Source of the DNA: Leucosporidium creatinivorum
Taxonomy: Eukaryota; Basidiomycota; Microbotryomycetes; Leucosporidiales; Leucosporidiaceae
Length of the DNA: 64,000 nt
Assembly (NCBI GenBank): GCA_001600635.1
Contig: BCKL01000031.1
Coordinates: 98,650-162,649, forward strand
Reading direction: 5' to 3'
How positions within the stretch are numbered: position 1 is the first letter of the stretch; each line of letters opens with the position of its first letter. The notes under the pieces were generated by a model, which worked only from the letters and a program-made list of their open reading frames with translations, ran no database searches and had not been told where the DNA came from. The translations under genes and the position numbers were made by a program. Of the stretch, positions 13,727-57,380 are shown piece by piece.

Positions 13727-14228
13727 CGCTAAGTCGAAGTGAGCAGGCGAGAACGTTGAAGTGCAAGCAGCGGCGCGTCGACTTGCGAAGTGAGGCGGGT
13801 CAGGGGTGTCACAGGGAGGAGGGTGCAGATGGTGTCAGGTCGAGCGTGAGCACTTTCCGAGAGCTTTAGGTCACTGCTCTGGTTTTCTCGAGGCTCGACA
13901 ACCGACTTCGGAGCAGCTTCGGCGTTCGCTTCGCAAGGAAATGGCTCTGCCTGGTCTCGCACTACTTCGGCCGGCTGTAGCAAGGTCGCGTCTGTCTGAA
14001 AGCTACTGCTCCGAGCTTTTACGGTCTTCTGGGACTCCCCCGACTCTGCAGCGTGGCAGCCGACCGCTCCCCATCATCGCCGAGCCCCTCTCGCTGCTCG
14101 GTCGGCTCTGCTGAAGGTATCGGAAGTCTGCTATGGCTTGCTAGGATCTCTCGCTGCTCCTGAGTATCTCCTCCTACGGTTCCCACTTGCCCCCGCCTTG
14201 TTGTCGAGTCACCGCTCTCGGCGCTTAG

Positions 14229-14450
14229 TGCGAGGTCTGTGGAGCGTCCGAAAAGCTTCAGAAGTGTTCAGGATGTGGCTGGAGCTTGTAGTGCTCTACG
14301 GCACACCACGCGAGGACTGGATGACCCACAAGGACTGGTGAGCTTTGAGTTTCGGGCCTCTTGCCTTCGTCTTAGCGTGCGCCGACTCGGAGCTGAACTC
14401 CCTCCGCTCACCAGGTGCAAGAAGAATCGCAAGTCGACCTTGAGCTGAAC
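14229..14450 (+). pseudogene. Relic of a MYND-finger gene (C-terminal finger only)
   Basis: From 14229 the frame reads CEVCGASEKLQKCSGCGWSL, then a TAG where paralogs have Tyr, then CSTAHH; a one-base shift follows, after which REDWMTHKDW is found in another frame. The family intron that splits the last Trp codon is still recognisable, with CKKNRKSTLS after it (about 14413-14442). The N-terminal 250 or so residues are absent: the sequence just upstream (13980-14115) instead matches the far 5' flank of MYND copy 6 in inverted orientation. So this is a deleted, decayed copy of the gene now seen at 55.4-56.7 kb. Confidence 0.85.
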
Positions 14451-15045
14451 TCACAAGTGCCTAGTGCGGACTGACGTGGCTGAGGTAAGTCTTGGAGCCT
14501 CTACTTTTGCAAGCCGGCCTCGCTGTCCTTCTCGGCGTTTGCAGGTGGTCGAGCCGAGCCAGTCGGAAGACGCGTGCTGGGGTGAGTAGCAATCAAACAA
14601 GGTCAAAGAGCTGTAACAATACACTTGAGCAGCGCCGGAGACGCCAAGAGCTCGAGACAGCGGGCAAGAGAGCTTCGGCGAATGACTGGCGAGCTCGGTT
14701 GACATTCAGCGCAGCTCCCCGAGGTTGAGGAGTGGTAGGCTATGCGAAAGCCACCATCCGCGCAACTCAGCCATTCGCATGTACCTTGACTGAGTTCAAC
14801 TCGGTACAGAGGGCATCAACGAAAGCATGAGCACTCTCTCTTTCCGATTTCGGCGCCGAGCTCGGAGGCTGAGAGCAGATGAAATCCTCTCGCCTCGCGC
14901 TTCCGACCGCTCCGGCCCACCCCATCAAGCGTTCGAACTTGGTGTAAATAATGCTATTGCGCGTGGGGGTTGATGAGAAGTGACTAGTGTATAACGATGA
15001 GACATGGAAAGGGAGCGGGCGCTAACGCCGAGACGAGACATCAAA
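14451..15045 (-). repeat. Duplicated gene-free block, copy A (inverted partner at 54836-55440)
   Basis: Read on the minus strand from 15045, this block shares long matches with the plus strand from 54836: CTCGTCTCGGCGTTAGCGCC, TCTCATCGTTATACACTAG, CGGTCGGAAGCGCGAGGCGAGAG, GCATAGCCTACCA and CGCCGAAGCTCTCTTGC, in the same order with similar spacing. Divergence is moderate (substitutions and small gaps), so it is not an assembly echo. No continuous reading frame is shared. It lies between the MYND relic and secreted copy 2; its partner lies between MYND copies 5 and 6. Confidence 0.85.
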
Positions 15046-15080
15046 CGCCGACGACCTTAAGGCCAGCAGCGCCGACGACC

Positions 15081-15859
15081 TTAAACCAGGAGCGCGAGTC
15101 CTCCAGCGAGAAGGAGAGCGAGTCCACCGGCAGCCGCGTTCTTGCCAGCTCCAGCCTTCTTGTCGGTAGGGCTGGCTGCAGCGGCGGAGGAGGAGATGAC
15201 GGTTGCGGCGCCCTTGGCTCCAGCGGCGGAACCCGAGCTGGCCGAAGAGGAGCTGCCCGAGGAGGAGCTGCCCGAGGCAGAGCTGATGGGGGAGGAGGTC
15301 GCCGAAGCCGAGGCCGAGGAGGGAGGGGCAGCGGTTCCCTGGACGTAGGTCAGGTTCGAGTCGGTTCCGTTGGTGACGGTGGGACAGTAGGTGTTCCAGG
15401 CTGCAGAAGTCGAGTTCAGTTACAGAGACTGAGAGACAGCAGAGAGCGAAGAACGAACAGTCGATGAGGTCCATGGCGTTGGTGGTGTTGGACAGGCAGC
15501 CCGTGCAGGCGGTGAGGAGGGAGCCAAGCGAGGGATCACAGAAGCAGTCGAGCGAATCCTCTAATGTAGACGAGTCGTTGAGACCGGAGCATTTCTATTT
15601 CGGCGCCGAAGGATGTCGTCAGCCGAGTCGCCGAGGGAAGCAGACACGGCCTACTCACGTCGCTGTAGCCGTCAGTCCAGGGCTTGCAAGCATCTGCGCA
15701 TGCAGGCTCGATGAGGACGGTAAAGGCGTCGCCGATAGACTGAGCGCGAGAGACGGCTGAGCAAAGTCGAAGCGGTCAGTACTCGCCGAAGCTCGTAGAG
15801 GTCGCCTGAAGCTCACCAGCGAGAGCAAGAGTGGCAAAGGATACGAGAGTGAGCTGCAT
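15081..15859 (-). CDS. Small secreted 8-cysteine GPI-type protein, copy 2
   Basis: Signal peptide MQLTLVSFATLALAAVSRA from 15859, then CADACKPW, KCSGLND, CFC, CTGC and WNTYC (eight cysteines in the family spacing C-x3-C, C, C-x-C, C-x2-C, C), NxS/T sequons, a Ser/Ala-rich stretch of about 45 residues (SSGSSSSASSGS) and a hydrophobic tail GGLALLLAGGLALLV ending at TAA 15081-15083. This architecture predicts secretion and a GPI anchor. Three introns. Just after the stop the 15-base word CGCCGACGACCTTAA is repeated (15046-15060 and 15069-15083), so the stop itself sits in a small tandem duplication. Spacing differs from the CFEM pattern, so I do not call it CFEM. Confidence 0.85.
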
Positions 15860-16642
15860 GGTGATGTCGGCGGCGGAGAGAAGTGAAGAAGAGGAGGAAG
15901 AGAGAAGGAAAAAGGGAAAACGCTCGTTCTTCATTGAGCGAGGGGCGCCCGAGGGTACGGGCTCAGGTGCATTGCCCACGCTGTGCCAAAGTGCAGTAAG
16001 TCCGACCGAAGCACCTGCAAATAGCAGCAGAGGCGGAAGCGGTCGGTTTCCGCCGCCAGAACCGCTTCGGCGGAGGGCAGCGGGAGTGCTAAGAAGGTCA
16101 CGTGATGTACATGTGTCTAGGGCAGTGCAAAGTGCCATTCATTTTCGACCTCGGGCGATGCTCGTTAGCGTGCATGTGGCGATGACATGTCGTTGATGGT
16201 GAGAAGGGAGAAGCAGACACTCGGCGCCGAGCGAGAAGGGCAAAGCGAGCTCTGCAGCGAAGGCGAGGACCAGCAGCAGCTGACCCTGAGTAGTAAGTTG
16301 CAGACCCTAGAATCCGCTTTTGAAGCTGTGTATTCCCCTGCAAGGCTCAACAGAGCAGTGGACGACATGACGAGTCAACGTCGGCGAGAATGGTTGACGA
16401 GGGCGCCGAGTCTCGTTGAGTCTCGTTCCCAAGACTTCGGTCGACAATTTCAGAAGTTGCACAGCTCGCTCAATCCTCTTCCACCATCTCCCGCGCCTAA
16501 CAACAGCAAGCTCATCGTCTCGCCTCTCCGCAGCTCCTCCTCAGCTAGGTCACGATCTGCTCGGCGAGGATGGCGAGAGGTCAGCTTCGGCGTTTCTTGA
16601 CCTGCTTGGGCGTGAGACGCACCGTTGGGGAGACTTCAGAGC
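15860..16642. other. 5' region of secreted copy 2 and 3' flank of MYND copy 2
   Basis: Holds the promoter of the minus-strand secreted gene (with a GTCACGTGAT box) and, at about 16510-16605 on the minus strand, an intron-end and short exon-like segment shared with the 3' flank of MYND copy 5. An ATG frame at 16187-16600 on the plus strand would encode 137 residues without any family match; it crosses that shared segment in antisense and I do not accept it as a gene. Confidence 0.55.
16097..16106. promoter_or_regulatory. GTCACGTGAT box upstream of secreted copy 2
   Basis: A CACGTG core with GT and AT flanks, about 240 bases upstream of the copy 2 start codon. The same GGTCACGTGAT word occurs 272 bases upstream of copy 3 (20783-20793). 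CACGTG boxes with this flank are classic bHLH sites (Cbf1/USF type). Shared position in two paralogous promoters supports function. Confidence 0.5.
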
Positions 16643-17721
16643 TCAAGAAGAGGTGGCAGCCGACTTGGTGTTCTTCTTGCACCTGTGTGGAGGCGAGAGG
16701 GAAGGTCAGCTTCGGCTCGGCGATGAGGAAGAAGATAAAGCGAGGGACGAACCAGCTGCGATGGCCAGCCCAGTCTGCTTTCTGATGCTCGAGACTACAG
16801 TAGTACTCGTACCCACAATCAGCACACTTTGCGAGTCCATTTTTCTTGCCGCAGATGGCGCAGCTCCGAGCTCGGACCGAGCAAGAGAAGAGCGCTGGCC
16901 GTGTCGGACACCTCTACGTCGATCCTGTTCAGGGCCGCCTGGGGCGAGATGTGTGTGACCCACTTAAAGACCTCGGGGCGGTCAAGGAGCTTCCCTCGCT
17001 CGGTCGTCCTGCGATGGGAGAGCAGCGCCGAGCGTGCTTCGTCGCAGAGCGGTGGCAGGATCGCCGTTTCGTGGTCGCCATCGTATTGCTCCCAGAAGGG
17101 CGGCGTGAAGTCTTCAGCTTTGCGTCTAACGAGGGTGTCGAATGTCTTGTAGGAGGTGGTGAGGCCGTAGAAGGAGTGCCGAGACGAAACGATGACGGCG
17201 GAGATGCCGGGAGGACCATGGAGCAGGGTGACTACTCCGGTCATCTTGTCGAGGGTGAGGGCAAGAGGTCCTTTCTTGGCGCTGGGTAGGAAGCGAAGAA
17301 CGCCGGGGCGGAAGAGGGGAGGGATCGCCTGTTCCAAAGCGCTCGGCAACCGCTCGTTCGTAGTCGCGCCCATCAGCACCTGAAGCTCCAAGGTACGGCC
17401 CTGGGACTTCATCGCATGTACTGCACCCTCCAGGAGCACACGCCTCATCTCCGTGCTGTAAGCTGACCACCGCTCACTCGGGAGAAGGGCGAAGGAGTGA
17501 CCCGTTTCGGGGCAGTGCCCTACTATGGCGCACGAGTCGAGGCCGCCGCTCAGACCCGCTACAGGTGTTTCGGGCGAGAGCTTCCCCCAGCAGGCGGGTG
17601 CGATAGGGTAGTAGTTGGGGAGCGAGAGGATCTTGCTTGAGCTGGCGAGAGCTGCAGGCATGCCAGGGAAGGAGGCGAAGGCGCTGCTGGGGAGGTTGTG
17701 GTGCTGGACGGTGAGACCCAT
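16643..17721 (-). pseudogene. MYND-finger protein, family copy 2, frame broken before the finger
   Basis: Starts MGLTVQHHNLPSS at 17721 and runs for about 290 residues with family landmarks (CAIVGHCPETGHS, LLEGAVHAMKSQGR, VVTLLHGPPGISA). A perfect-looking MYND finger follows (CAIC, CADC, YYCSLEHQKADWAGHRSW, then C in WCKKNTKSAATSS), but it is in a different frame from the body: the upstream frame instead runs on to LRHLRQEKWTRKVC and stops at 16819. No usable intron lies at the switch (around 16870). Either one base is gained or lost, which would remove the zinc finger, or the reference has a base error. The last intron has the unusual donor GTTCGT, as in copy 5 (GTTCGC). It is divergent from copy 3, sharing the 480-base region between them. 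Confidence 0.75.
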
Positions 17722-18201
17722 GCTGTTCTCCCTCCTTGAGTGAGGACGAGAGAGTCCAATCGAGCTGTCGAGACGAGGCGGCGAGCAAGATGTGGCAGGA
17801 AGACAAGAGGCGAAATCCAACTCGGCTCGCCTCTTTCCTTCCCACTTCATCTCGCTTCTCTCTTCTCGTCGCTCTCAGCTTTCGACTCTTCCAGGGGACT
17901 ACAGAAGCACAGCTACAGCTCGACTACAGCTCTACACCTTTCCAACCCTTCCAAAGCTCGACGCTCGGGCGCTGAAACACGTCGAGGCGGACGAACGAGT
18001 GCCAGTCGCTGCTGCTGCTACAAGTCAACAAGGAGAGTCCAAGTCGAGCTACAGGTGATCCTCCAGCTCCAGAGAGCAGAGGGTGAGAGCTGTGGGGCAG
18101 TAGCTGACCCCCTCACACGCGCAGACCGAGCCCTCTTCGCGCCCTCTCCCCTCGCCGGTCGCTCGCTGTGCCCTTTCTTCGACCGCCCTCCTACCACCAC
18201 A
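17722..18201. promoter_or_regulatory. Shared upstream region of divergent MYND copies 2 and 3
   Basis: Contains the conserved module (17790-18060) also found at 8990-9260 and, inverted, at 53230-53515: GGCAGGAAGACAAGAGGCGA, GACTACAGAAGCACAGCTAC, AGCTCGACGCTCGGGCGC, AAACACGTCGAGGCGGACGA, CAAGTCAACAAGG. On the copy 3 side it continues to a likely 5'-leader intron ending near AGCTGACCCCCTCACACGCGCAG (about 18110), then a short leader to the ATG at 18202. A single region must drive both genes. Confidence 0.7.
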
Positions 18202-19281
18202 ATGCCCATCCAGATCAACCGTCTCTCGCTCGACTCGCCTAGTGCAGCTTCGGGAGCAACCACGAGCAGTAACATCGCATCGCCAGGCTTGATCGAACTG
18301 GCGCCGTACAGCTACGCCCTCTTCGAGGCCGAGTCCGCCGCTGAGGGAGCAACAGGAAGCACTTCGGAAGGCATCATCGTAGCCCACTGTGAGGCGACCA
18401 AGCGCCACTCCATCTTGCTGCTCGGCAAGGATCAAATCCGCTTCGACTCTTTCGCCGAGCATGTCGAGCACCTTCGCGGCGGTTCCGAGGGACACAGCAT
18501 CGAGGTTTGCTACATCGCCAATCCTCAGCGTCTCAGCAGCTCGTTCCTTCCCACCCTCGGTCCCGTCCTCGTCAACCTCGGCGCTCCCTTCCGCCTCATT
18601 TTCACCTTCCAAACTGTCCCGCTCGAAGGAGCACAGCGCTTCACCGTCGCCAAATCGCCGCCTCAAGTCTCTCTTTTCAAAAGCGCGTCGCCGACCCCTC
18701 TGCCCCTCCTCGAAACCACCGATCCCTTTCAACAGCTCTTTGCGATTCTCGCCGTCCTCGAAGCCAACATGCTCGCCGCCAAGGGTACGTCTATCACGCC
18801 CTTCTGCGCCTACGACGGACAGGATACAACTCGACGACTTCCTGCGCTCTCCCCTCCCGTCCTCTTGCTCATCCACTCGGCTCGCGCTTCCCTCGGCGCC
18901 AATGTCGCTCCTCGCTCGCACAGCAAGAAGAGCTCCCCTTCGCTCAACGACTTGGTCAGCTTGAGCAAGCAGGCGTTTGCTCGAGGCACTGCGTTCCCAG
19001 CGAGTATGCCGCATTCACTGGCGTCGTTGGGGCGCTACTGCAGCGTGTGCGGAGAACAGGCGCTGTCGAAATGCTCGGCGTGCAAGACGGAGAACTACTG
19101 CTCTTCGACGCATCAGCAGGAGGATTGGAATCATCACAAAGCCTGGTGAGTCTGACGGTCTATCACAGGCTCTCGCAAGCGGTGGCGCCTCGCGTTCGCC
19201 GCCTCTCCATCGCCGAGTGACTAACTTGCTTCTTGCTTCAGGTGCAAGCTCGCGCGTGACCCCGAGCCGAGCTCACGCTAA
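18202..19281 (+). CDS. MYND-finger protein, family copy 3
   Basis: Starts MPIQINRLSLDSPSAASG and is very similar to copy 4 (MPIQIDRLSLDLSSATSG) throughout, including GIIVAHCEATKRHSILLLG and HVEHLRGGSEGHSIEVCYIA, so the two are a recent duplicate pair. The finger reads CSVCGEQALSKCSACKTENY then CSSTHQQEDWNHHKAW, and the family intron (about 19149-19241) splits the last Trp codon. The last exon gives CKLARDPEPSSR and stops at 19279-19281. Aligned with copy 4, one base is missing after the DP codons; in copy 4 the frame continues as TRELTKKETVTLVPTWEL. The finger itself is intact, so the change only replaces the tail. Partner and cellular role unknown. Confidence 0.85.
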
Positions 19282-19795
19282 AGGAGGTCGTCTCTTTGAT
19301 TCCTACTTGGGGACAGTACGTATCCTGCTCGCTCTCTTCGCGAGCGAGGCCGGCCGAGCAGCTCGTTGACTCAGCGCTCTTCTTGCGCAGGGAACTCTGA
19401 TCCGGAATACCATCGCTGTAGCTTTGACGAGGCACGATACCTTAGTAGCTCGTTCTGCTTTTGCTTGCTCTGTAGCTTACTAGCCTGTTCTCTGACAAGC
19501 ATCGCCTCGGCGCGAGCGAGAGGACAGACACCTCCGCCGAGCTTCCTGTCCGCGTTCTGCAGACTCGGCTCCACATTCATGTTTCCGTGATTTGCTACCC
19601 ACCGGCTCACTATCGCTCGAACTCGACGAGTAGAGCAAAAAGCTACCGCCGTGGCCCACCTCGTCGTGTCTCGGCGCCGAGCCAGAGAGACCTGTTTCGC
19701 GGTTATGCAGTGGGGCAGCGAGCTTGCGGGAAGCTTTAAGCTGTGTATAAATGCTGATATAAGAAATGGGGTCAAGATAAAGTCCCCCCCCCCGC
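19282..19795. other. Convergent intergenic region
   Basis: The first 130 bases still align with the C-terminal tail and downstream exon of the MYND family (an acceptor at about 19390 follows a GTACGT donor at about 19318). The remainder has no recognisable gene; a run of ten C lies at 19784-19793 next to the stop of secreted copy 3. Confidence 0.5.
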
Positions 19796-20518
19796 TTAAG
19801 CCAACAGCATCAACCCAGCAGCGACGAGAAGAGCGAGCCCTCCCGTCGCGACCTGCTTAACGGCTCCAGAATCCTTGCCGGTGGAGGTAGCTCCAGGCGC
19901 GGAGGTAATTAAGGTGCAGGCGACCGTCTGCGAGGGCGAAGAAGCAGGAGCGGCCGCTCCCTGGACGTAGGTGAGGTTGGTAGTAGTCGAGTTGTCCGAA
20001 GCGAGGGGAATGCAGAAGTCGTTCCAGGCTGTTTGATGGTCCGGTGTCAGTTCCTGAGAAAGAGAGAGTGTCGGTGGCGAACTGACAAGTGACGAGCTCC
20101 TCTCCGAGGGTGTGGTTTGACAAGCAGCCGGTGCAGCCGAGCATGAGCTTCCCGAACGACATGTCGCAGTAGCAGACTATTCCCTCCAGTAGCTTCTCAT
20201 CGTCCTCGTTATCGAGTAAAGGGGTGCATTTCTGTATCGGTGCAAAGCGAGGGTCAGTCAACGCGGTGGACGATGAAGGCCGAACCGAACTCCGAACGTT
20301 GGTGAGGGTGTCGGTAAACGGAGAGCATGCTTGCTTGCATGCGGGCTCGATGAGGTCGGCGATGGAGGTGTTGTGGGTAATAGTTTGCGCCTGAGAGACG
20401 GCTGGGGAGTGAAGGAGGGATCAGTGAGTTGGCATCGCCGCATCGCCGAGCGCCGAGGGAAGGGCGGAAGCTCACCAGCGATGGCAAGAGTAGCAAAGGA
20501 GACAGCAATGAGCCTCAT
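19796..20518 (-). CDS. Small secreted 8-cysteine GPI-type protein, copy 3
   Basis: Signal peptide MRLIAVSFATLAIAAVSQAQ from 20518; core cysteines CKQACSPF, KCTPLL, CYC, CTGC and WNDFC follow the family spacing. The stretch NSTTTNLTYVQG matches the xLTYVxG segment before the linker in copies 2 and 4. The linker is shorter than in copy 2 and contains one extra Cys (TVACTLI). The hydrophobic tail GGLALLVAAGLMLLA ends at TAA 19796-19798. Three introns. Predicted extracellular, GPI-anchored; function unknown. Confidence 0.85.
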
Positions 20519-21125
20519 GATGCGAGTTGGAGAGTGAGTTGTGCGGGAGAAAAGCGAAATGAAGGAGAAAGAAAGAAAGAGAGAGAGCGGAAAGGAAGAA
20601 GCAGAAGCCTGATCTGGCGAAGGGAGTCATGGCTTTGAAGCCCCTGTTGAAGCTCCTGCAGCACGATATTCGTATGTCCGGCGGCTTCTGCTCCACTGAC
20701 ACACTGAGAAGAGAAGATCTACTCCTTACAGCGCTGCAAGTCGGCTCGGCGGGCGCGGACGACACCGCTCGGGGGCGGTGCGGGTCACGTGATTTGTATG
20801 ACGATAGGCAGGGTAGCACAGTACGCCCTCTCATGCGCCCTGCAAGCTGCTAGGGTCTTGTATCGGAGCGAAGCCTGCTCGCAAGCTCAATCAAGCTGGA
20901 AGTCGGCGCCGAACTCAGAGCTGACTCGGAGACTCGAGAGCACGAAAGCTTGAGGCTGCTCCCCGCTCAATGGCTGAGCCATTTTCTCGATACGAGCACA
21001 AAGATGAGGTATAACCAATACAAATGCGACTGGCCAGCTTCCAGCACCGTCTGAAACTCAAGAAGGGGCTATAAATGGAGATAGACGCCATCGCCGAGCG
21101 CCGAGCCAACCCTTCCTGCTGCCTC
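20519..21125. other. 5' region of secreted copy 3
   Basis: Promoter region of copy 3 with a purine-rich leader on the plus strand (about 20550-20600) and a GTCACGTGA box at 20784-20792, 272 bases from the start codon. The right part is the 3' flank of copy 4. No gene recognised. Confidence 0.55.
20784..20792. promoter_or_regulatory. GTCACGTGA box upstream of secreted copy 3
   Basis: Palindromic CACGTG core in the same context as the site upstream of copy 2 (16097-16106). Its spacing from the start codon is about 270 bases compared with about 240 in copy 2. Confidence 0.5.
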
Positions 21126-21813
21126 TCAGACGAGAAGAGCCAGTCCACCCGCGACAAAAAGACCAAGTCCACCAGCAGCAATCTGCTTGGCCGCACCCGA
21201 ACCCTTGGCGGTGGGAGTAGCTCCGGCGGCCGAGGAGTCGGCGACGGCGGTTCCCTTGACGTAGGTAAGGGGGGTCTTTCCGCCGGCCGTGCTGTCCGTG
21301 TACTTGACCGCGCACACGTCGTTCCAAGCTGAAGGTGCGGAAAAGTCAGTACACTCGTTTGCAAGAGGTTGAGATAGAGAAGACGGACACTCGACGAAGA
21401 GCTGACCGCTAGTCGAGTTGGAGAGGCATCCCGAGCAGTCGAGGAGGGCCTTGGAAGCCGAAGGAGCGCAGTAGCAGTTGGCGGCTTTGGTCCCCTCCTC
21501 TGTAGTAAGATCTTGGCCGCTGTAGATGACATCGCAACCCTAGGGAATGTCAAAGGTCAGCCTGATTAGCTCGGGGGCCGAACGCGGCGAGCGCAGAGGG
21601 AGAGGGCGCACGTCGCTGTTTTAAGACCTTGATGATGGGAGCGCACGCAGGTTTACAAGCGTCTTCAATGGCCGTGTCGTTGAAGCCTTGCGCATGAGCT
21701 CCAGCTGCCGACGGCGGAGGAAGGGGTCAGTTCGAATCATCGCCGAGCGGAGGGGCAAGTCCACACTCACCAGCAAGAGTGAGAGCAGCGAGGGCGACGA
21801 GAGAGAACTTCAT
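21126..21813 (-). CDS. Small secreted 8-cysteine GPI-type protein, copy 4
   Basis: Closest relative of broken copy 1, sharing the leader and signal peptide (MKFSLVALAALTLAAGAQAQ from 21813). Core: ACKPACAPI, GCDVIYSGQD, CYC, CSGC, WNDVC, then TPLTYVKG and a short linker to the GPI-type tail AAGGLGLFVAGGLALLV with TGA at 21126-21128. The boundary between exons 2 and 3 is awkward: keeping GCDVIYSG in frame needs a GTCTTA donor or a shift, so that junction should be treated as unsure. Asn sequons (FNDTA, SNSTSG) support secretion. Confidence 0.8.
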
Positions 21814-21935
21814 GGCTGATGATGCGAGGCGAGAGAGATGTGAGAATCAGAAAGACAAGAGCAGATTCTTCCCACAAGGCTCGCTCAGCCCGCTCCGCCG
21901 ACCCCTCTCGGCGCTCGGGTCCCGACAAACGTCCC
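21814..21935 (-). promoter_or_regulatory. Duplicated promoter/leader of secreted copy 4
   Basis: The reverse complement matches 6366-6490 in front of copy 1, including CCGAGAGGGGTCGGCGGAGC, AATCTGCTCTTGTC-type leader sequence, TTTCTGATTCTCAC and CATCAGCC before the ATG. The order and spacing are the same, so the duplication unit reached beyond the coding region. Confidence 0.7.
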
Positions 21936-22129
21936 CCAATGAGGACGAGGCCTCGCAGGGGACACCGATTTCCAAGGATGTACATTCGGACCCCGCATCC
22001 ACGCATGGGAGAAAGCGGCGACCCAAGGGAGCGGGAGCAGGTAGAGCCGAGAGCCGTCGCCGAGCAGCTCACGCACGAGCGAAGAGATGTTACAACATCA
22101 CTACCAGCACTCACATACACACATACAAA

Positions 22130-23868: not shown

Positions 23869-24131
23869 CGCTGCTCGTATGTGGCGTGTAGCAGGAGCAC
23901 AAGCAGCAACAGCGAGCGAGCGGCTAAAGTTGTAGATCAACCTTCGTTGGCGAGCCTCGTCCAGCCTTCCCCAGGCCAAAGGCACGACTCAGCCTGATTC
24001 GGCGCTCCCTCCGCCCGTTGAACCTCGTCCTGTAGCTCTATCGCCGACCCTGATACTCTGGGAACCTACCACGCTACAGTCTCGTGGAAGCGCATCTACT
24101 CTTCCTCGCCGCTCTCCTCCAGCACGAGCAG

Positions 24132-26403: not shown

Positions 26404-26628
26404 AAGAGGAGCTTGGAGGAAGGCCGGGGGAGGGGGTTCGGCGATGGCAGCTTGGCGCAGGGGACAGGTGGACGAGCTGTAGTGCAGTGCAAAGTCGTTT
26501 GTGTACCCAAATCTTCTCATCTGCGTCACCAGCGAGCTTCCTCCTCGCTCAGCTTGCCCCGAGTCGACCTCGGCCGATCCCCCTCTTCGCCTCTCTGCCT
26601 CTGCCCCTCACCTTCGCTCGACTCCACC

Positions 26629-34220: not shown

Positions 34221-37200
34221 ATGTCAAACGAAGTGAGTTTCGAGCTCACTTTGCTGGTTCACACACTCGGCTGCTGCTTCTCGACCATCCTGGCATCCTT
34301 CTGCACCTCTCCAGCCCAGCGATTTAACGAGGCAGGACGCTGTGGGGTAGGCAGGGAGGAACATGTCGCTGCTCTGCAGGCGGGCTTCCCAGGAGCGGTA
34401 GACTACCGAGCTACAGACAGTAAAGCTGTACCGCTGTAGGCCCGACGGGGTAGCTGAGCACCCGACTCAAGCGGTTGGCGCTGAAACCCGTCATTGAGCG
34501 GCGGAGTTCGGCGTCTCTGCTGGGTCCCTCAGCAGTCCTGTTGGCTACAACAAGCTACAGGAGGATCTCTGCACCCTTCTAGACGACTCAGCGCTATACC
34601 GGTGTATCCGGCTTGCTCAGAACGGTCGCTGACCCTTCCGCTCTGTCCTCGCTCCTCCAACTCGAACAGCTCTCCTTCAAGAACAAGATCGTCGTCGTCA
34701 CCGGCGCTGGCGGTGGTCTCGGCAAAGCCTATTCCACCTTCTTCGGCTCGCGCGGCGCCAAAGTCCTTGTCAACGACTTCAGCAAAGAGGCGGCCGACAA
34801 GGTCGTCAAAGAGATCAACGACCAAGGCGTTGGAGAGGCGGTGGCCAACTACTCGGATGTTACCAAGGGTGGGGAGATTATTGAGCAGGTGATGCAGAAG
34901 TGGGGGAGGGTCGACGTGCTCATCAACAAGTGAGTTACTCGCTCAGAGCGGGAGGGATGAGAGCTGACGAGCCCCACTTGTGACTGAGCAGCGCCGGCAT
35001 CCTGCGTGACAAGTCGTTTGCTGCTATGAGTGAGAAGGAGTGGGATCAGATCCATGCGGTTCATGTCAAGGGATCGTACGCTTGCTCCAAGGCGGCTTGG
35101 CCCATCATGCGCAAGCAGAAGTACGGCCGGATCATCATGGTGAGGTCTCGCCTGTCTTGTTGCCTTCGGCGCGAGAGCAGAGCTGATGGAATCGTATACA
35201 CGACAGACCGCTTCCGCCGCTGGCATCTACGGCAACTTTGGCCAGGCCAACTACTCTTCGGCGAAGATGGGACTCGTCTCTTTCGCCAAGACTCTTGCTC
35301 GCGAGGGAGCCAAGGTACCTACCCTCCCCCGTTTCTCTCTTCTCCCCGCTAACCCTCGCCTGAACCCACAGTACAACATCCACGCCAACGCCATCGCGCC
35401 CGTGGCCGCCTCTCCCATGACCGAGACGATCATGCCTCCCGAGATGCTCAAGTCGCTGTCGCCCGACATGATTGTCCCCATCGTCGCCTACCTCTGCCAC
35501 GACTCGACCGAGGAGAATGGGCAGCTGTTCGAGGGAGGAGCGGGATGGTACGGCAAGCTTAGGTGGGAGAGGAGTAAGGGAGTCGTGTTCAAGACGGATG
35601 ACTCGTTCACGCCTGCTGCTGTACGTTCTCTCGCTTTCGCTACTCGCTACTCGATTCCGAGATATCAAGAGCTACAGCTGACCTCCCCTTCGCTTCGTCG
35701 TCGAAACAGGTCAAGGCCCGCTGGGAGGAGATCAACGACTTCACCGACCCGACCCACCCCGCCAACATCACCGACGCGGACTACCTCTCCTACCTCGAGC
35801 AAGCCAAGACGCTCTCGACCAACAAGCAGCCCGAGCCCGTCCGGTTCGACAACAAGACGGTCGTCGTCACTGGCGCCGGAGGAGGACTCGGACGCGCTTA
35901 CGCGCTCATGTACGCTAAGCTTGGCGCTAATGTCGTTGTCAATGACTTCAGTGGTGAGGCGGCGGAGAAGGTTGTCAAGGAGGTTAAGGATTTGGGAGCG
36001 AGGGCGATTGCGGCGGTCTGCTCGGCCGAGGAGGGAGAGAAGATTATCAAGATTGCCGTCGACATGTTCGGCAGCGTTCACGGTTCGTCCCCCCTCTCAT
36101 CTCTCCTCTCATCTCCTTCCCATCGCTGACCTCCCGCACTCTCACCCACAGCCGTCGTCTGCAACGCCGGCATCCTCCGCGACAAGTCCTTCGCCGCCAT
36201 GACGGACAAGGAGTGGGACGATTGCTACAACATTCACGTCAAGGGTACTTACGCCGTCTGCAAGGCTGCGTGGCCCATCTTCCGCAAGCAGAAGTATGGA
36301 AGGATCGTCAACACCGCTTCCTCCGTTGGAGTGCACGGCAACTTTGGGCAGGCCAATTACTCGACGGCCAAGAGTGCGATTATTGGGTTGACCAAGACGT
36401 TGGCTATTGAGGGAAAGAAGTGAGTTGCATGTGCTGGCTGGAGGAGAGTGGGTGAAGGAGCTGAGGCTGACTCTTCTCGGCGCTCGTCTAGGTACGGCAT
36501 TCTCGCCAACTGCCTCGTCCCCAACGCTGGAACCAACATGACTCGCACCGTTGTACGTTCTCTCCTTCAATACACTCTTCCTGACCCCACTGACGCTCTT
36601 CAATTCGCACAGTGGCCCGAGGAGATGGTCCAAGCCTTCTCGCCCTCCTTTGTCGCTCCCATCGTCGGCTACCTCACCTCCGAGGCCAACGAGACGACGC
36701 AAGGACTGTACGAAGTCTCGGCGGGATGGTGCGCCTCGTACCGCTGGCAGAGGAGCTATGGAGTCGCCTTCCCTGTCAACTCCAAGGTCTCGCCCGAGCA
36801 GATCAAGGGCAAGTGGGAGGAGATTACCAGGTTCGATGAGAAGGCTACGAACCCTAGCTCGACTTCCGACAGTCTGCAGTCGGTGAGTCCGGCTTCCTTC
36901 CTTTTCGCCACTGCCGAGCGACAGCTGACCGCGCTCCTCTCAATCTCGCCGCAGATCATGGAGAACTTCTCCAACGAGGCCGACTCTTCCTCCGCCTCTT
37001 CATCGGGCTCTTCCAACCCCTACGCCGACTCGTCCGACCCCGAGATCGTCGCCAAGGCCAAGGCCGAAGCCGTCGAGACGGGCGAGTACACCTACTCGGA
37101 GCGCGACGTCGCTCTCTACAACCTCGGCATCGGAGCGACCGAGAAGGACATGGACCTCATCTTTGAGGGCGACAACGACTTCCAGGCGGTCCCTACTTTT

Positions 37201-38429: not shown

Positions 38430-38700
38430 GCCTTGCACAGGCCTTGCTCAAGCATTGTGCAAGCCTTGCAGGCATTGCGGAGGGGTTGCGGAGGCGTGGA
38501 GGCCATTGTCGATGTCAGGAAACAAGTTGGAGGTGCGCCAGAAAGTGGTGCAGGGCGCTCGAGAAGCGTCGGAGAGATTTCAAACAGTGCAGAGATTGCT
38601 TGAGCGAGAGGTGGCTGCGGGAGAAGGCGCCGATCGAGTTCCAGAGCCGAAGCGAGCAGGGGAAGCTGAGTGGCCGAGAGGGGGAGGATACAGCTTGCGA
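38430..38700 (+). repeat. Dispersed element with degenerate 11-bp repeats, copy 1
   Basis: Begins with about seven imperfect 11-base units (CCTTGCACAGG, CCTTGCTCAAG, CATTGTGCAAG, CCTTGCAGGCA, TTGCGGAGGGG, TTGCGGAGGCG) at 38430-38500, followed by TTGTCGATGTCAGGAAACAA and GGTGCGCCAGAAAGTGGTGC. The reverse complement of 43205-43537 has the same order: 11-base units, then TTGTCGATGTCAGGAAAGAA and GGTGCGCTAAGAAGTGGTGC. The similarity fades after roughly 200-250 bases. No shared reading frame; perhaps a non-autonomous element or structured RNA. Confidence 0.75.
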
Positions 38701-43105: not shown

Positions 43106-43204
43106 GCCGCTCGCCCACCATCGCCGAATGCGCTTCGTTTCGGCGCTTGAGCGCTACCTGTACCTACTACCACCTTTGACTCACTTGCATGCAAATCACA
43201 TGTT

Positions 43205-46213: not shown

Positions 46214-46596
46214 GCGCCTACACTTCAAAACACGCTTCCCCTTCCCCTTCCTTCCTTCCTTCGTTCAACCCGTCACCCCCACCCATCAGTATGTTGTGTA
46301 TACCTTTCTCAAACTCGTTACTTCCCCCTCGCTTTTCAACAACCTTCGTAGCTGTGCCCCTCGCCTTTGCCCCCCCTTTATTAGTTCAACCTATTGCGCT
46401 GCAAGCAGCTGCTTCTCTGGATCACGTTGCGGCAGGGCGAGAGAGAGAAAGTCGGTGAGCAGCGAGGGATCATCGATGAGACGATTGAGCAGGCTCGAAG
46501 GCGCAGCGAACCAGCTCGCCAGTCTCGCCGAGCTTGTCAAGCCCAAGGTCGCCGCCGAGGTTCCAAGCAAACAACATTACACTATTCAAAGCCTCC
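46214..46596. other. Convergent intergenic region
   Basis: 3' flanks of the TauD-like gene and the MYND protein. Pyrimidine-rich with CCTTCCTTCC repeats (about 46238-46262). No gene. Confidence 0.5.
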
Positions 46597-48058: not shown

Positions 48059-48328
48059 GTCGAAGTGAAGACGAGGTGAGCGTAGGAGGGAGAGAAGCGA
48101 AAAGCCGTTCTCGTCCTCTCATCTCGCTCGAGGCAGAGTTTCGATTCCGACTTCGCAGTCTCTCGCATCTCTCGTCTGAGACGTCAAGCGTGAAACTTAT
48201 AGCGAGAAAACTAGAGCACTACTGCAAACCTTGAGAACCTGCGCCAACCTCGCCCCTTCAGTGGGGGCTGCGCCTCCGAGCATGTCTCCTCCTCTCTCTG
48301 CACCGACCTGCAGCGAACCGACACCACC

Positions 48329-51173: not shown

Positions 51174-51978
51174 GTGTGTAGCTGTAGTGTGATGGATGTG
51201 CTGGAGAAGTTGGGGCTGCTGTAGCGAAGCAGGAGGAGCAAGAATCGGTCAACTTGGAGCCCTTCAAGCTGGAGCGAGCCTCCCTCGAGCGGGGAAGCGG
51301 GGGGCCAGCGAATAGCAGGGCAGAGAGATGTAGGAGAGTAGGGCAGGGGTGCTGCTGCAGCGCGATACTCACTTGTAGTGGGACGTCGACGAGCAGAGAC
51401 TTGTCGGACGAGTGAGTGGTCGGAGGCAGCCCTCGAACTTGGGAAAGCTCTCGGTGGCAGGTGGGGCTCTGCCAGTCGGCGAGCGCCAAAAGCCGAGCTC
51501 CCCTTTCACAGCCAACCCCGTGCTTCTCAATACATCCCAAGTGTTCTGTTGGCTATCTAGCTTCTTGTAGGTCTTCTTCGACGACAGCATCCCTCAGCCA
51601 ATTCCACCATCTCTCTCTCCCTTCATTGGCTCGCGATTTCGGCCCCTTCGCGGGAAGGAGACGCCGAGCGGAGGAGCAAAATGAAGTTGTAGCAAAGCAG
51701 ACGAAAGCTGAGGCTGAAGCTCGAGTGTGAAGAGAAGTCTCGCAGGGTGGAACGAAAGCTCAGCGAAGGTCTCCTTTCGACGCTCGCTCTCGCCGAGGAG
51801 AAACTGAGCGCGAGACTAGAGTATCGCAGTGCAGAGGAAAGCAAGCACACCGAACCAGCTTCGATTCCTTGCGACCACATCAATTTCGAGTGTAGGACTC
51901 AGAGCTCCCTGCGGGCAAGAGCGCCGAGTCAGTAAACTGCTCGGTTGATCTCGCCGCGCGCGGAACTAGGCGAGATGC
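51174..51978. other. Intergenic region between fumarate reductase and MYND copy 4
   Basis: 5' flank of the fumarate reductase gene, including a possible 5'-leader intron (an acceptor-like stretch near 51180 and a donor-like GTGAGT at about 51368 on the minus strand). No other gene seen. Confidence 0.5.
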
Positions 51979-53105
51979 TCACAGTTCCCAGGTAGGCACA
52001 AGGGTGACCGTTTCCTTTTTGGTAAGCTCGCGCGTGGGATCACGAGCGAGCTTGCACCTGAGCGCGAAAGCGAGAAGGAGTCAGTCGCTCGGCGATAGAG
52101 AGAGCGCCGACCGAGACACTGCGCCCCAAGATGAGACCAGTCATCAGAAACTGAAGCTTACCACGTCTTGTGCTGGTTCCAATCCTCCTGCTGATGCGCC
52201 GAGGAGCAGTAATACTCCGTCTTGCAACCCGAGCACTTGCAGGCCGCCTCCCCTCCGCAAACGCTGCAGTAACGCCGCATGGCTGCCAATTTCTGCGGCA
52301 GCCCGTGACCCCAGACATCGCCTTCGTCCAACGCCTCCCTACTGACGCGAAGGAGAGCTTCAAGGGAAGGGAAGGTGTGCTCCTTGTCGCTCGGACTGGG
52401 ACCGAAGCGGGTGCCGGTGGGGAGACGAGCCGACTCGACGAGGAGGCGGACAGGAGGGGAGAGAGAGGGGAGTCGACGAATGGCGTTCGTGCTGTCGTAA
52501 CTGCACCACGGCTTGATGGCGAGACCTCTGCCGGAGAGGCAGAGAGCCTCGAGAGCCGTGAAGATGCCAAACGCTCGGTCGAACTGATCATCGCTGTTTG
52601 TGGAGGGAGGAACGGAGGACGAGGTGCTTTTGTAGAGGTTGTTGTGGATCGGGTTGAGTACGGCGAAGCGCTGTGCTCCCTCGAGCAGGACAGTTTGAAA
52701 GGTGAAGGTCAGGCCGAAGGGAGCGCCGAGGTTGACGAGGACGGGACCGAGGGTAGGGAGGAAGGAGCTGTTGAGTCTCTGAGGATAGGCGATGTAGCAC
52801 ACCTCGATGCTGTGTCCCTCGGAACCACCGCGAAGGTGCTCGACATGCTCGGCGAAAGAGTCGAAGCGGATTTGATCCTCGCCGAGCAGCAAGATCGAGT
52901 GGCGCTTGGTCGCCTCGCAGTGGGCGACAATGATGCCTTCCGATGTGCTTCCTGACACTCCCTTGACGGCGGAGTCGGCCTTGAAGAGGCCGTAGCTGTA
53001 CGGCGCGAGTTCGATCAAGCCCGGCGATACGACGAGGGTGCTCGTGGTTGCTCCCGAAGTTGCACTAGACAGGTCGAGCGAGAGACGGTCGATCTGGATG
53101 GGCAT
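51979..53105 (-). CDS. MYND-finger protein, family copy 4
   Basis: Starts MPIQIDRLSLDLSSATSG at 53105 and is the near twin of copy 3. Body landmarks: LIELAPYSYGLFKADSAV, GIIVAHCEATKRHSILLLG, LPTLGPVLVNLGAPFGL. Finger: CSVCGGEAACKCSGCKTEYY, CSSAHQQEDWNQHKTW, then across the family intron (about 52057-52158, splitting the Trp codon) CKLARDPTRELTKKETVTLV and PTWEL before TGA at 51979-51981. All eight zinc ligands are present. It is divergent from copy 5, mirroring the copy 2/copy 3 pair in inverted orientation. Confidence 0.88.
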
Positions 53106-53556
53106 TTTGGTGGTAGGAGGCGGTCGAGGGAAGTGTAAAGCGAGCGACCGGCGAGGGGAGAGGGCGCGAAGAGGGCTCGGTCTGCGCGTGTGAGGGGGTC
53201 AGCTACTGCCCCACAGCTCTCACCCTCTGCTCTCTGGAGCTGGAGGATCACCTGTAGCTCGATTCGACCTCGCCTTGTTGACTTCTCAGCAGCAGCAGCG
53301 TTTCGAGTCGTTCGTCCGCCTCGACGTGTTTCAGCGCCCGAGCGTCGAGCTTCGGGAGGGTGTTGAGAGGGTGTAGAGTTGAGGAGGAGCTGTAGCTGTG
53401 CTTCTGTAGTCCTTTACGAGAGTCGAAAGCTGAGAGCGACGAGATGAGAGAGCGCGATGAAGCGGGAGGGAAAGAGGCGAGCCGAGTCCAATTTCTTTTG
53501 TCTTCCTGCCTCATCTTGCTCGTCTCAGAGGGTGGACTCAACTCGCTCGCCTACAG
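53106..53556. promoter_or_regulatory. Shared upstream region of divergent MYND copies 4 and 5
   Basis: Read on the minus strand it repeats the module of 17790-18150: GGCAGGAAGACAAA, ACTACAGAAGCACAGCTACA, AGCTCGACGCTCGGGCGCTG, AAACACGTCGAGGCGGACGA, CAAGTCAACAAGG, and then the same leader (CTCCAGCTCCAGAGAGCAGA, GCTGACCCCCTCACACGCGC). This is the closest pair of the four modules, agreeing with the closeness of copies 3 and 4. Confidence 0.75.
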
Positions 53557-54659
53557 ATGGCGATCACGATCGAGCACTACTACGTACAAGAAGGCGACCC
53601 TATGTTGCAACCAGCGCCTACCTTCGTCCCGCCAGAAGTAGCCCGCTTCAGCCTCGACCCTCCCAACAGCCTCGTCCTCGCCTCCTACTGCTACGCCTTC
53701 CTCCTGCCGACGTCCCCCATCTCTAGCTTTATCTCTCTCTTCCAATCGGCCCCCCTCATTGCCTACTGCGAGGCAACTCGGCGCACCAGCGTCTCTCTTC
53801 TCGGCGTGGACCAAGTGTTGAACCAGCAATACGCGGAGCAGCTCGAATTCCTCGTGGACGGTCAGAAGGACCTCAAGATTGAGTTGATGATGCTTGACGA
53901 GAGCGGAGCTCCCTTCCCGGCCCTCGAAGCCGACCTGCCCATCCTCGGCGCTTCTCGTCGCCTCTCCTTCACCTACCGCTACGAGAAAATGGGCAAAGCC
54001 AAGCTCTTCGCGGTACAGCCCGGCGGCAAAGTCATTCTCTACTACCCCACCACCCAAGTCCCGACCTTCGTNCCCCTCGGCGACACGCGCACCCTGGCGC
54101 TGAGGGCGGTCGTCAACGTCGAAGCGGTCGCCACGGCTTCGAGGGAGACCGGCAAGATCACGAGGACCTGGTGCCAGTACGANGGTACTCAAANGATCGG
54201 GCGCCTCCCCNTTCTCTCCGACATGGCGAGAGACGGCATCAAAGCCGCCTTGGTGCAGCAAGCCAAGCCCGCCCATTCCAAGTCGCTGCTGGCGGACACG
54301 ACGTCGAATTCGAATCAGAGGATCAAGGAATCTCAGTCGCAGAGGCGCGCTTTGGAGGAGGGTGGGAAGCTGGAGGACAAGGTGCTGTTCGCAGCGGGCA
54401 TTCTTTGCCGCACGGGAGCTCACTGCTCCGTGTGTGGTGAGAGGAAGCAATTACTGCAGTGCGCGGGCTGCAAGGTCGACTACTATTGCTCGACGGCGCA
54501 TCAGAAGGAGGACTGGCCCCACCACCGCAGCTGGTTCGCTTCGCGCGAACCTTCCTCCTCATCGCCGAGCCGACGCTGACCTTTCTTCCCGCCTCCTCCT
54601 TGCTATACAGGTGCAAGAAGAACCTCAAGTCGACGACCAGTTCTTCTTGTGATTTCTAG
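53557..54659 (+). CDS. MYND-finger protein, family copy 5
   Basis: MAITIEHYYVQEGDPMLQPA from 53557, then LVLASYCYAFLLPTSPIS, LIAYCEATRRTSVSLLGVDQ, ADLPILGASRRLSFTYRYEK. Finger: CSVCGERKQLLQCAGCKVDY, YCSTAHQKEDWPHHRSW, and across an intron with donor GTTCGC the final CKKNLKSTTSSSCDF to TAG 54657-54659. Four ambiguous bases (54072, 54183, 54194, 54211) fall within the body and hide at least two residues, so this copy may have been hard to assemble. Frame is otherwise intact. Divergent from copy 4. Confidence 0.85.
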
Positions 54660-54835
54660 CTAGTTGAAGGTGGGTCTCTCTCTGAAGCAGACCGAGTAAC
54701 ACAGAAGCTGACCTCCCGCCGTTCTCGCCGAGCAGGTAGTCGACCGAGCTGAGGAGGAACGACTAGAGGCGAGGCGATGAGCTTGCTGGAGGGAGGCGCT
54801 GGGGTCGGACAGGAAGGGCTCGCGAGTGTTGCCTA

Positions 54836-55440
54836 AAGTGGTCTCGTCTCGGCGTTAGCGCCCTCTCCCTTCTCCCTGTCTCATCGTTATACACTAGCTA
54901 CTTTTCGTCACCCTGACACACAATACCATTCCTTACACCACGTTCGATCGTTTGATGGCGTGGGCGGAACGGTCGGAAGCGCGAGGCGAGAGAATGGCAT
55001 CTGCTCCGAGAGGAGGAGTGCTCTCGCTCTCTCCGATACCGTCTGCACGGAGTTGGGCTTGGTCGAGGTACAGAAAAAAGCTTCATTACCGCTCATCCGA
55101 GCCTTAGCATAGCCTACCAAGCCTTCGAGAGCGGCGCTGAATCTCGAGCCAGCTCGCTTGCCTTCCGCCGAAGCTCTCTTGCTCGCTCCTCATGGTACGT
55201 CGCGAGGCCGAAAGCAGTCCCAGCGTCGTTGCAGCTTCAACACTCTCTGTAGCGTTATTTACAGCAGCTCATGAAAGCAAGTCGTTCAACTTCCTTCGTC
55301 GAGCCTGCGAAGCCGAGGTGGTCAGCGCTGAAAGTTTACCTTGGACGAGCGCACGCGCTCACCTGTTAGCTGCTCAGAAGTCAACAAACCTGTGGCCAAA
55401 GTTGACAAGAAGACATTCCAGCTCAGGTGCGGAGAGAGAA
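54836..55440 (+). repeat. Duplicated gene-free block, copy B
   Basis: Inverted partner of 14451-15045. It fills the convergent gap between MYND copies 5 and 6. Matches are strongest in the first 300 bases (to about 55141), then again at CGCCGAAGCTCTCTTGC (about 55166-55182) and around TTATTTACAGCAGCTC (about 55256). It contains the perfect palindrome GGCGTTAGCGCC-like segment near 54853. No coding frame is shared between the two copies. Confidence 0.85.
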
Positions 55441-55447
55441 CGCCTCC

Positions 55448-56654
55448 TCACTCGCCAGCGCCACCTGTAGAGCGATAGGGCGAGGGTCAGCTGTTATGTC
55501 TTTTCGGCTCGAGAGAGCTGCACCTACGTGTCCTCGCCTGAAAGCCAGAAAAGTCCAACATATGCTCATCCGACAGCGGCTCTTCCTGCCTTTGGAGCAA
55601 GAGGCACCTGTGTGGGCGAGAGCGAGCGGTCAGCTCGAATTCGGCGAAGAGACTCGGCTTCGTTTATCGCTGGCGTCGTGAGGACAGGAGCGAGCTGATA
55701 GAGAAAACCGTGCACGCACCAGCTCTTATGATGCTTCCAGTCCTCACGCTGAGGCTCAGCCCCGCAGTAGAACTCCTTCTTGCATCCGGCGCACCTGAAC
55801 AGCGACTCCTCTCGCCCGCACACGCAACAGTACGGCGCAAGCACTCCAGCAACTTCATCCCGGCCGATGCTCATCTCATCGGACGCCAGCGTGTGCCTCC
55901 ACACTCTCATGATGTCTGTGAGCGAGACTGTGGCTTGACGAGCGGGCAGGGTGGGAATCGTCTCGGCGGGCATGCGAGCCGCCTCGAGGACCACTCGGAG
56001 GTTGGCTGAGAGGACAGGGAGTCGTTGAGGCCCACCAGTCCCACGGTAGATGCACTGAAGCTCGGCGGTGTCTCCCATAGCTATCTTCATGCCGCCCTCG
56101 AGAGTGGTGAGTAGGCCGAAAAGCTCCTCGAAGCGGTTCTTCTCGAATCGGACCGGGGGAGAGGACGGCGAGCGCGACTTGTAGATAGAAGCTCCCATCG
56201 GAGATCCTTTCCTTACGGCGAACGCCTGCGAGTCGTGGGACTGAACCGTCGCGAAGTCGAAGCTGAGGTCGAGAGGAGCGCCGAGGTCGTGAAGAACGGG
56301 TTTGAGGGCCGCTAGCAGGACGTCGTTCTCGTCCTGAGCGATATGAACGACGTTGATCGCCTGTCCTGTCGCTCCCGCCCGGAGGTAGTCCAGCTGCTCA
56401 GCGAATGATCTGAACCCTAGCTCGTCGGCCCAAACCGTGATGGCGCTGCGGCCTGTCTCCTCGCAGTGAGCTAGTATGAGGCCGTTCTCAGCTGCTCCTA
56501 CCACTCCATGGATTGATGAGTCGGGCTGCAGGAGCGCGTAAGTCCCAGAGCTCATCGTGAGGGTCGAAGGATGAAAGAGTTGGATGTAAGGTGGCAGAGG
56601 AGTGGGAGGATTGGCCGGTGGGTCGAGGATGGTGCGTACGACGTTGATGGGCAT
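55448..56654 (-). CDS. MYND-finger protein, family copy 6
   Basis: Starts MPINVVRTILDPPANPPT at 56654. Landmarks: SSGTYALLQPDSSIHGVV, LILAHCEETGRSAITVWADE, LKPVLHDLGAPLDLSFDF. Finger: CCVCGREESLFRCAGCKKEF, YCGAEPQREDWKHHKSW with C after the family intron, in CLLLQRQEEPLSDEHM. The second half of the finger has EPQRE where others have AHQxE, so the His in that position is replaced by Pro while the ligand His of KHHKSW is kept. The last exon may end at 55487 or, with one more intron (GTAGGT donor), at 55448. It is the intact counterpart of the relic at 14229-14450. Confidence 0.8.
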
Positions 56655-57380
56655 CCTGCTTTCCTGTAGCGACGAGGTCGAGCGAGCTTTCGAGACGAGG
56701 TGATGGCAGGAGCACAAGAGGCGATCCGACTCAGCTCGTCGCTTCTCTCGCTTCGCTTCCTCCGCTCGACTCTTCTCGACCTCGCTGAGCACTCTGTACA
56801 GCTCTATATACATCTCCATCTCTTCAAGAGCAGGCCAACCTCTTATACACCCTCAACACCTCGACGCACGGACGCTCAAACACGTCGGCTTCGAGGCGGG
56901 AGGCTCAAGCGCGCTGCAGGACGGTCAACAAGGCAGGGAAGGCTGCAAGCTACAGGCGAGGACTTGGCGTAGCTCTGAGAGAGCTGGCAAGACATGACAG
57001 CCGTTCAAGGCTTGCAGCAGCGCCGACCGAGCAGAGAGGGGCTCGGCGATGATTAAGAGCGGTTGTGTGTGGTCGCTGGAGGGTCGAGGAAGCAGCAGAT
57101 GAACCCAGAGGCTCTGAAAGATAGCCTTCAGACAACCAAATACCTGCAGTAGCTGCTGAACGCTGTACAAGGACAGCGAGAGCTGACGCGAAGCAGAAGC
57201 GAGCGCCGAGCTCATCTCGACTGGCTCTCAGCGAGGGTGCAAAGCAAGATAAGGCTTCAATACTCACTAAAAGCTTCACCAGCCTGCTGTACACCACTCA
57301 ACACCCCTTAAACACCCGCTCGAGCCCCCCTTCCCCCGTCTCAAAAGGACGCGCCGCTCGCTTTCCCTCCCGCCACGACG
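56655..57380. promoter_or_regulatory. Upstream region of MYND copy 6 and of the pseudokinase gene
   Basis: 56700-56960 is a diverged version of the MYND upstream module (GGCAGGAGCACAAGAGGCGA, TATACACCCTCAACACCTCG, ACGCTCAAACACGTCGGCTT). 57000-57200, read on the minus strand, matches 13980-14130 on the plus strand (TCATCGCCGAGCCCCTCTC with neighbours), which marks the outer limit of the inverted duplication. No coding gene seen. Confidence 0.6.

Follow-up and report, generated by a model that had tools for sequence, protein, structure and literature searches.

Results

Divergent MYND gene pairs around a shared core

The stretch of DNA analysed here (the window) comprises 64,000 nucleotides of the Leucosporidium creatinivorum genome (27.7 Mb in 63 contigs), corresponding to C31:98650-162649 on C31 (BCKL01000031.1), a contig of 282,684 bases, and contains two mirrored blocks built around head-to-head pairs of genes encoding proteins with a MYND finger. 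Both blocks belong to an array of such pairs, and it is quite probable that they derive from an old inverted segmental duplication within this array, later overwritten by recombination between pairs. Positions without prefix refer to the window and those prefixed "C31:" to the contig. Pairs are named by their kilobase position on C31, P116 consisting of copies 2 and 3 and P151 of copies 4 and 5, and every pair was oriented with its core in one direction, which defines a left (L) and a right (R) gene. The end points of copies 2, 3, 4 and 5 were taken from sequence reading, and three stretches in the last 83 kb of C31 were covered through searches only.

Eight divergent MYND pairs on C31 are complete, among them P185, P202, P211, P234 and P245 at C31:184-187, 201-204, 209-213, 233-236 and 243-246 kb, and two more, P76 and P107, are half pairs. 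All of them share an intergenic core of about 330 bp when complete, around which the divergent genes are arranged, whereas the half pairs keep only approximately the left 200 bp and have no MYND match on the right. An earlier note on this DNA, made from the sequence alone, had described a shared promoter in each of the two blocks; the element is indeed present in both but particular to neither, since a genome search with 17782-19400 retrieved ten places on C31 (counting the query itself) at which it is present in full or in part, along with one weak match on C25. The core is not strongly palindromic, and only imperfect short inverted repeats were found in it. Five complete pairs face one way and three the other, so the inverted orientation of P116 relative to P151 is not special in this array. 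When unlike pairs are compared, the core and the MYND/3' ends account for most of their likeness at the DNA level.

Mirrored blocks and their non-coding flanks

Self-BLAST of the window yielded four matches, all on opposite strands and in mirrored collinear order, which agrees with the inverted homology of 13.9-19.3 kb and 52.0-57.3 kb described before. From the core outward, 17782-19400 matches 53522-51899 (78% identity over 1645 columns), 16490-16788 matches 54802-54498 (75%), 14659-15039 matches 55187-54841 (72%, E 6e-54) and 13993-14152 matches 57134-56977 (71%, E 3e-13). Under gentler scoring the last match, in the outer flank, widens to 13760-14203 against 57368-56926 (64%, E 7e-25), its right side lying upstream of copy 6. 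The matches are therefore not confined to the MYND coding parts, since a non-coding block and an outer flank both find their equivalents in the opposite block. The gene-free match had been drawn over 14451-15045; it holds for 14659-15039 but not for the rest of that interval. The non-coding block ends abruptly at 15039, where a segment particular to the left block begins (15040-16489). As had been noted, this segment holds a gene for a secreted-like protein, and the corresponding interval on the right measures 38 bases. No conserved open reading frame was found in the non-coding block, both copies having at least two stops per frame, and neither Rfam nor ARAGORN gave a known RNA match within the window.

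As in a segmental duplication, the homology is collinear and takes in non-coding flanks as well as genes, although a gene is closest to its own counterpart only in the case of copies 3 and 4. When the non-coding block (query 14640-15045) and the outer flank (query 13860-14230) were searched against the whole genome, scoring being limited to the best candidates of each search, the only hit of either apart from the query itself was in the opposite block. Because these matches were found nowhere else and the order is collinear, we conclude that the block was duplicated in inverted orientation. Alternatively, the blocks could be two members of a dispersed family that share promoters and MYND ends with no segmental duplication behind them, as might be supposed from the presence of the core and MYND ends throughout the array; however, two non-coding matches in mirrored order lie outside the shared parts of the family, and we regard this explanation as highly improbable.

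Four related stretches encoding small, apparently secreted proteins were observed around the left block (6377-7203, 15080-15860, 19790-20600 and 21081-21930), and none was seen adjoining the right block. Self-BLAST of the window also revealed a further local direct repeat within 34988-36373 (34988-35137 and 36161-36310, 75%) and a further local inverted repeat (38441-38553 and 43501-43387, 76%).

Gene classes and conflicting partners

The bodies of the left genes fall into class a (P151 and P185), class b (P202 and P234) and class c (P211 and P245), each with 97% DNA identity; the left gene of P116 (copy 2) is designated c', with 58% identity to c, and the left genes of P271, P107 and P76 each stand alone, without a class. 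Among the right genes, class alpha comprises P116 and P151 (copies 3 and 4, 75%), class beta comprises P185 and P234 (88%), joined more distantly by P211 (72-73%) and P271 (50-55%), and class gamma comprises P202 and P245 (56%). The remaining comparisons of bodies on the same side gave about 39-48% DNA identity. The resulting combinations are c'-alpha in P116, a-alpha in P151, a-beta in P185, b-beta in P234, b-gamma in P202, c-gamma in P245 and c-beta in P211. With c' counted as c, the seven classed pairs represent seven different combinations of the nine possible, P271 being unclassed on the left. In approximately unbiased (AU) tests on the L and R DNA trees, which contained all 10 left and all 8 right genes, the groupings suggested by the partners were rejected in eight of eight cases, with p values from 3e-4 down to 6e-44. 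The halves have changed partners, and no pair is a simple copy but all are patchworks.

The two blocks of the window illustrate this pattern. Copy 5 is nearly identical to the class-a gene at C31:184544-185521 (97% DNA and 96% protein identity), outside the window and about 31 kb away, and its protein search reached copy 2 through the MYND part only. Copies 2 and 5 had been taken as counterparts, an assignment that we do not retain: their 75% match is confined to the MYND/3' end, where the left genes of P185, P211 and P245 give 70-76% too, while their bodies, at 43.9% DNA identity, do not exceed the family background. A relic at 14229-14450, previously interpreted as a third MYND gene matching copy 6, turned out to be nearest to copy 1 (tblastx E 3e-16, versus 1.5e-5 for copy 6). 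In contrast, copies 3 and 4 do correspond (75% DNA identity), and among the counterpart genes of the blocks they alone are truly matched. Identity between them is 90% over the core and the 5' half of the gene and 63% beyond, and synonymous divergence (dS) rises from about 0.2 over the first 120 codons to 0.55-0.96 downstream of these.

These data bear directly on the simplest account, in which a single inverted segmental duplication was followed by insertion, deletion and decay only, copy 2 having diverged rapidly from its twin, copy 5, and the relic representing a remnant of the left version of copy 6. The collinear inverted order and the non-coding matches speak for it, and its first part, the inverted duplication, is upheld. 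Nevertheless, copies 2 and 5 do not rise above background identity, and the 97% twin of copy 5 lies elsewhere, a finding that already contradicts this account unless the twin is an assembly error; furthermore, the grouping of copies 2 and 5 that their alpha partners would suggest was rejected (AU test, p 2e-6), the relic has its nearest relative in copy 1, and two clearly different levels of divergence coexist within the gene of copies 3 and 4. We therefore consider it improbable that duplication and decay suffice. The description given in the earlier note is incomplete in the same respects, because the class of copy 5 is shared with a third pair, copies 3 and 4 contain a younger tract and the two blocks have third genes of different kinds; what it lacks is the main process, the exchange of partners.

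In genome protein searches the best relatives on C31 reached 96% for copy 5, 65% for copy 3, 96% for P234L and 39-40% for P271R, whereas on other contigs searches with four family proteins gave body identities of about 24-39%, with higher values over the short MYND part only. The coordinates of the features in the window are collected in Table 1.

Table 1. Features of the two mirrored blocks and of half pair P107 (window positions)
Feature	Position	Strand	Remarks
Copy 1, MYND, left gene of half pair P107	7962..8939	-	
Half core adjoining copy 1	8979..9186	.	83% to 17769-17984 (self-BLAST)
Left outer flank	13760..14203	.	Match to 57368-56926; one other genome place
MYND relic, nearest copy 1, not copy 6	14229..14450	+	84%/64 bp and 86%/44 bp to copy 1
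Left non-coding block	14659..15039	.	Match to 55187-54841, 72%
Left-only segment with secreted-protein-like gene	15040..16489	-	38 bases in right block
Copy 2, MYND, left gene of P116, c-like	16643..17721	-	Frame broken just before MYND finger
Intergenic core of P116, probable two-way promoter	17782..18131	.	Promoter role inferred
High-identity tract of copies 3/4, core and 5' half of gene	17782..18642	.	90% inside vs 63% outside, shuffle test
Copy 3, MYND, right gene of P116, class alpha	18202..19281	+	
Copy 4, MYND, right gene of P151, class alpha	51979..53105	-	
Intergenic core of P151	53175..53522	.	
Copy 5, MYND, left gene of P151, class a	53557..54652	+	97% twin at C31:184544-185521
Right non-coding block	54841..55187	.	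Self-BLAST and genome search
Copy 6, MYND, grouped with copies 3 and 4	55566..56654	-	Tree support 100/98
Right outer flank	56926..57368	.	Gentler-scoring match

Identity tracts and change-points

Sharp-edged tracts of high identity are found among the paralogues. For P151 and P185, nine 100-column windows in succession, which together span most of the coding exon, show 96-99% identity, and outside this tract identity falls to 56-82% towards the core and to 64-74% in the 3' part. Within the exon tract dS is 0.07 and the ratio of nonsynonymous to synonymous divergence (dN/dS) is 0.26. Selection was considered in place of conversion as the origin of the 97% copy and was ruled out, because protein selection does not explain an exon dS of 0.07 next to flanking windows with differences of 18-44%. 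P211 and P245 are 84-100% identical in windows over 209.96-211.46 kb, the best segment having 97% identity versus 64% outside, and P202 and P234 share 96% over 5.3 kb. The latter corresponds to a 5.3-kb inverted repeat (C31:202255-207497 and 234968-229712) that includes the class-b gene and carries undetermined bases (N) at matching places.

The significance of these tracts was assessed in seven comparisons by means of 2000 shuffles, setting the best-segment score against the shuffle score. Four comparisons scored above every shuffle by a margin: class a (876 versus 752), class c (1307 versus 568), class alpha (435 versus 116) and class gamma (129 versus 34). In the core, change-points were located at 17993 for P202/P234, at 18039 for P211/P245 and at 17988 for P107/P76, at which point the identity of the two half cores drops from 77% to 22%. 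The change-point routine chose the outer edge for P116/P151, P185/P234, P151/P185 and P202/P245; for the first two of these, inner steps near 18045 and 18077, respectively, were read by eye. Such abrupt changes of identity, at the edges of genes as well as within the core, fit gene conversion or crossover.

Several observations weigh against an origin of these pairs by exchange. The best shuffle-test segment of class gamma is the core alone, P185 versus P234 barely passes (578 versus 576), and neither P185 versus P211 (50 versus 99) nor the non-coding block (61 versus 68) exceeds the shuffle score. No sharp step in the middle of the core was found in two of seven core comparisons (P151/P185 and P202/P245). 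P202/P234 and P211/P245 share sequence past the left gene as well, and because of this simple duplication with an end point in the core may be their origin. The groupings submitted to the AU tests were picked after the identities had been seen, and the assignments of c' (58%), of gamma (56%) and of P271 to beta (50-55%) are loose and could reflect old kinship with no exchange.

In addition, the junctions of all pairs rest on one assembly, and the near-identical copies (P151L/P185L and P202/P234) carry N at matching places, where read placement was apparently ambiguous. One may thus suppose that the assembler, misled by the likeness of the cores and the near-identity of some genes, put together halves that do not belong to each other, the changes of partner being chimeric, a supposition that gains some ground from the likeness of the join regions across pairs. 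On the other hand, differences of about 3% between near copies and of about 10-30% between cores provide distinct marks for long reads, and the blocks of the window retain matching non-coding flanks on the left-gene side. An artefact of this kind therefore seems to us an unlikely source of the pattern, and exchange between pairs remains the preferred explanation.

Gene decay and features of the encoded proteins

In this assembly frame breaks or stops occur in P116L (copy 2), P185R, P202R, P211L, P211R, P234R, P76L and P271L, while the frames of P151L, P185L, P202L, P234L, P245L, P116R, P151R, P245R, P271R, P107L and copy 6 are open. The two near-copy pairs that were measured gave dN/dS values of 0.26 and 0.29, and the near-copy genes consequently look functional. 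A protein tree was built without P116L and P211R; P211L and P185R are absent from it owing to a stop in the translated stretch, and P76L, P202R and P271L lie outside the protein alignment. On this tree the left genes need three changes of side and a single left clade is rejected (p 0.025), so that an ancient split into a left and a right lineage found no support.

The C-terminal MYND finger (PF01753) exceeded the curated cut-off in all five open window copies that were scanned. The N-terminal domain had no match in Pfam or among PDB chains beyond the MYND part and sub-threshold entries, and no family of the NTAN1, CheD or YfiH type appeared among these results. Two AlphaFold models, begun from copy 3 and copy 1 with the same five window proteins as input, reached a low mean predicted local distance difference test score (pLDDT; 51 and 48), the N-terminal part being better. 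In Foldseek searches of the PDB both models were nearest to NTAN1 and to CheD or YfiH (E 8e-5 and 4e-5), with template modelling scores (TM-scores) of at most 0.59, which suggests, from models of low confidence, a CheD/NTAN1-like N-terminal domain. The cited part of a study of the NTAN1/CheD fold describes a strictly conserved Cys-His pair (PMC7022378). In the putatively equivalent candidate active-site column, the seven left-side sequences read, from a total of 10 left genes, all have Cys, and the six right-side ones read, from a total of 8, all have Ser or Ala; the candidate His, likewise a putative equivalent, is found in 12 of 16 sequences and is absent from class a, including copy 5. This split between Cys and Ser/Ala follows the side of the pair though left and right genes are not separate lineages.

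PF01753 exceeded the cut-off at 21 places on C31. Of the 88 MYND matches in the genome, 20 lie in C6:957-1208 kb, several as close opposite-strand neighbours about 160-250 bp apart, and C6 has a telomere-like repeat at position 1242234; together these features indicate a second, subtelomeric MYND cluster of other layout. A MYND cluster is present on C29 too. Further members of the C-terminal MYND family occur at C11:58-198 kb (seven PF01753 matches), C10:282-305 kb (three) and C44:8-39 kb (two); some are divergent neighbours, and none matched the C31 core in the genome search with 17782-19400.

Discussion

In order to account for a duplicated block whose genes in part no longer correspond, we hypothesize that ectopic homologous recombination, with the core and the MYND/3' ends as anchors, exchanges the genes of a pair singly, by gene conversion and sometimes by crossover or by duplication ending in the core. 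Exchange anchored in these parts is to be expected because unlike pairs are alike mainly there, and a special recombination site need not be assumed. In the window, one block would have lost its original left gene, either through the arrival of a class-a gene that became copy 5 or of a c-like gene that became copy 2, while copies 3 and 4 would have been homogenised over the core and the 5' half. The segment with the secreted-protein gene may have been gained by the left block or lost from the right one.

From its position and conservation, the core is likely to act as a two-way promoter from which the partners would be co-expressed, in which case each swap would yield a new combination of co-expressed partners. 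It is conceivable, but rather unlikely, that the array as a whole is a generator of diversity, with the promoter as a joint for the exchange of whole genes and ever-new co-expressed pairs of CheD/NTAN1-fold MYND proteins as its product, for instance in self/non-self recognition or defence. On that reading, judging from the candidate active-site residues, left (Cys) and right (Ser/Ala) members might be active and inactive partners, respectively, although the absent candidate His counts against this idea for class a.

The locus has wider bearings. High numbers of MYND fingers have been tabulated in Microbotryomycetes (PMC4469406, PMC10662464): R. glutinis has 26, S. roseus 11 and M. lychnidis-dioicae 7, compared with 3, 7 and 4 for the remaining three Pucciniomycotina listed (PMC4469406). 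The family studied here has these high counts in common, and the cited passages deal with neither the layout of pairs, arrays or exchange nor the origin of the numbers; the present locus suggests one route for the growth of MYND families, in which paired genes exchange halves at a shared intergenic joint. The family also gains a biochemical idea from the CheD/NTAN1-like domain: NTAN1 and CheD, as presented in the cited part of PMC7022378, are what both models match best, yet there is no sequence match and here a MYND finger is appended. Moreover, gene order alone is an inadequate guide for pairing or dating duplicated blocks in arrays of this kind.

No description of head-to-head MYND pairs in a fungus was found in the open-licence literature searched, and the closest parallels come from other systems, as portrayed in the passages cited. 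The silkmoth chorion genes HcA and HcB form strictly head-to-head pairs with 330 nt of intergenic sequence, pseudogenes and gene conversion at a high rate (PMC4639761). The MYND array is likewise composed of head-to-head pairs with a short intergenic region, pseudogenes and signs of conversion; however, the chorion genes belong to two named classes, whereas the left and right MYND genes are not two clean lineages, and the MYND pairs occur in both orientations, are separated by kilobases and vary in the classes of their partners, in addition to the differences in protein and organism. In Babesia bovis, about 33 divergent pairs of ves1 genes surround bidirectional promoters and become mosaics by segmental gene conversion (PMC7485966), which resembles the divergent pairs and mosaic genes seen here. 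Nevertheless, ves1 encodes surface antigens for which ongoing variation has been demonstrated, while the MYND array records past exchange in one genome only, and its core, with imperfect short inverted repeats alone, differs from that of ves1. The Tetrahymena mating-type genes MTA and MTB are arranged as tandem head-to-head pairs in which the inner portions vary and the outer ends are common to all (PMC3608545), a layout that recalls the one on C31; in contrast to the programmed somatic joining and deletion described there, the MYND array, as represented in one assembly, gives no sign of programmed rearrangement. Taken against these systems, the mode of evolution, that of head-to-head families subject to gene conversion, is already known, and it is the gene family, the pairing of domains and the combinatorial pattern of partners that look new.

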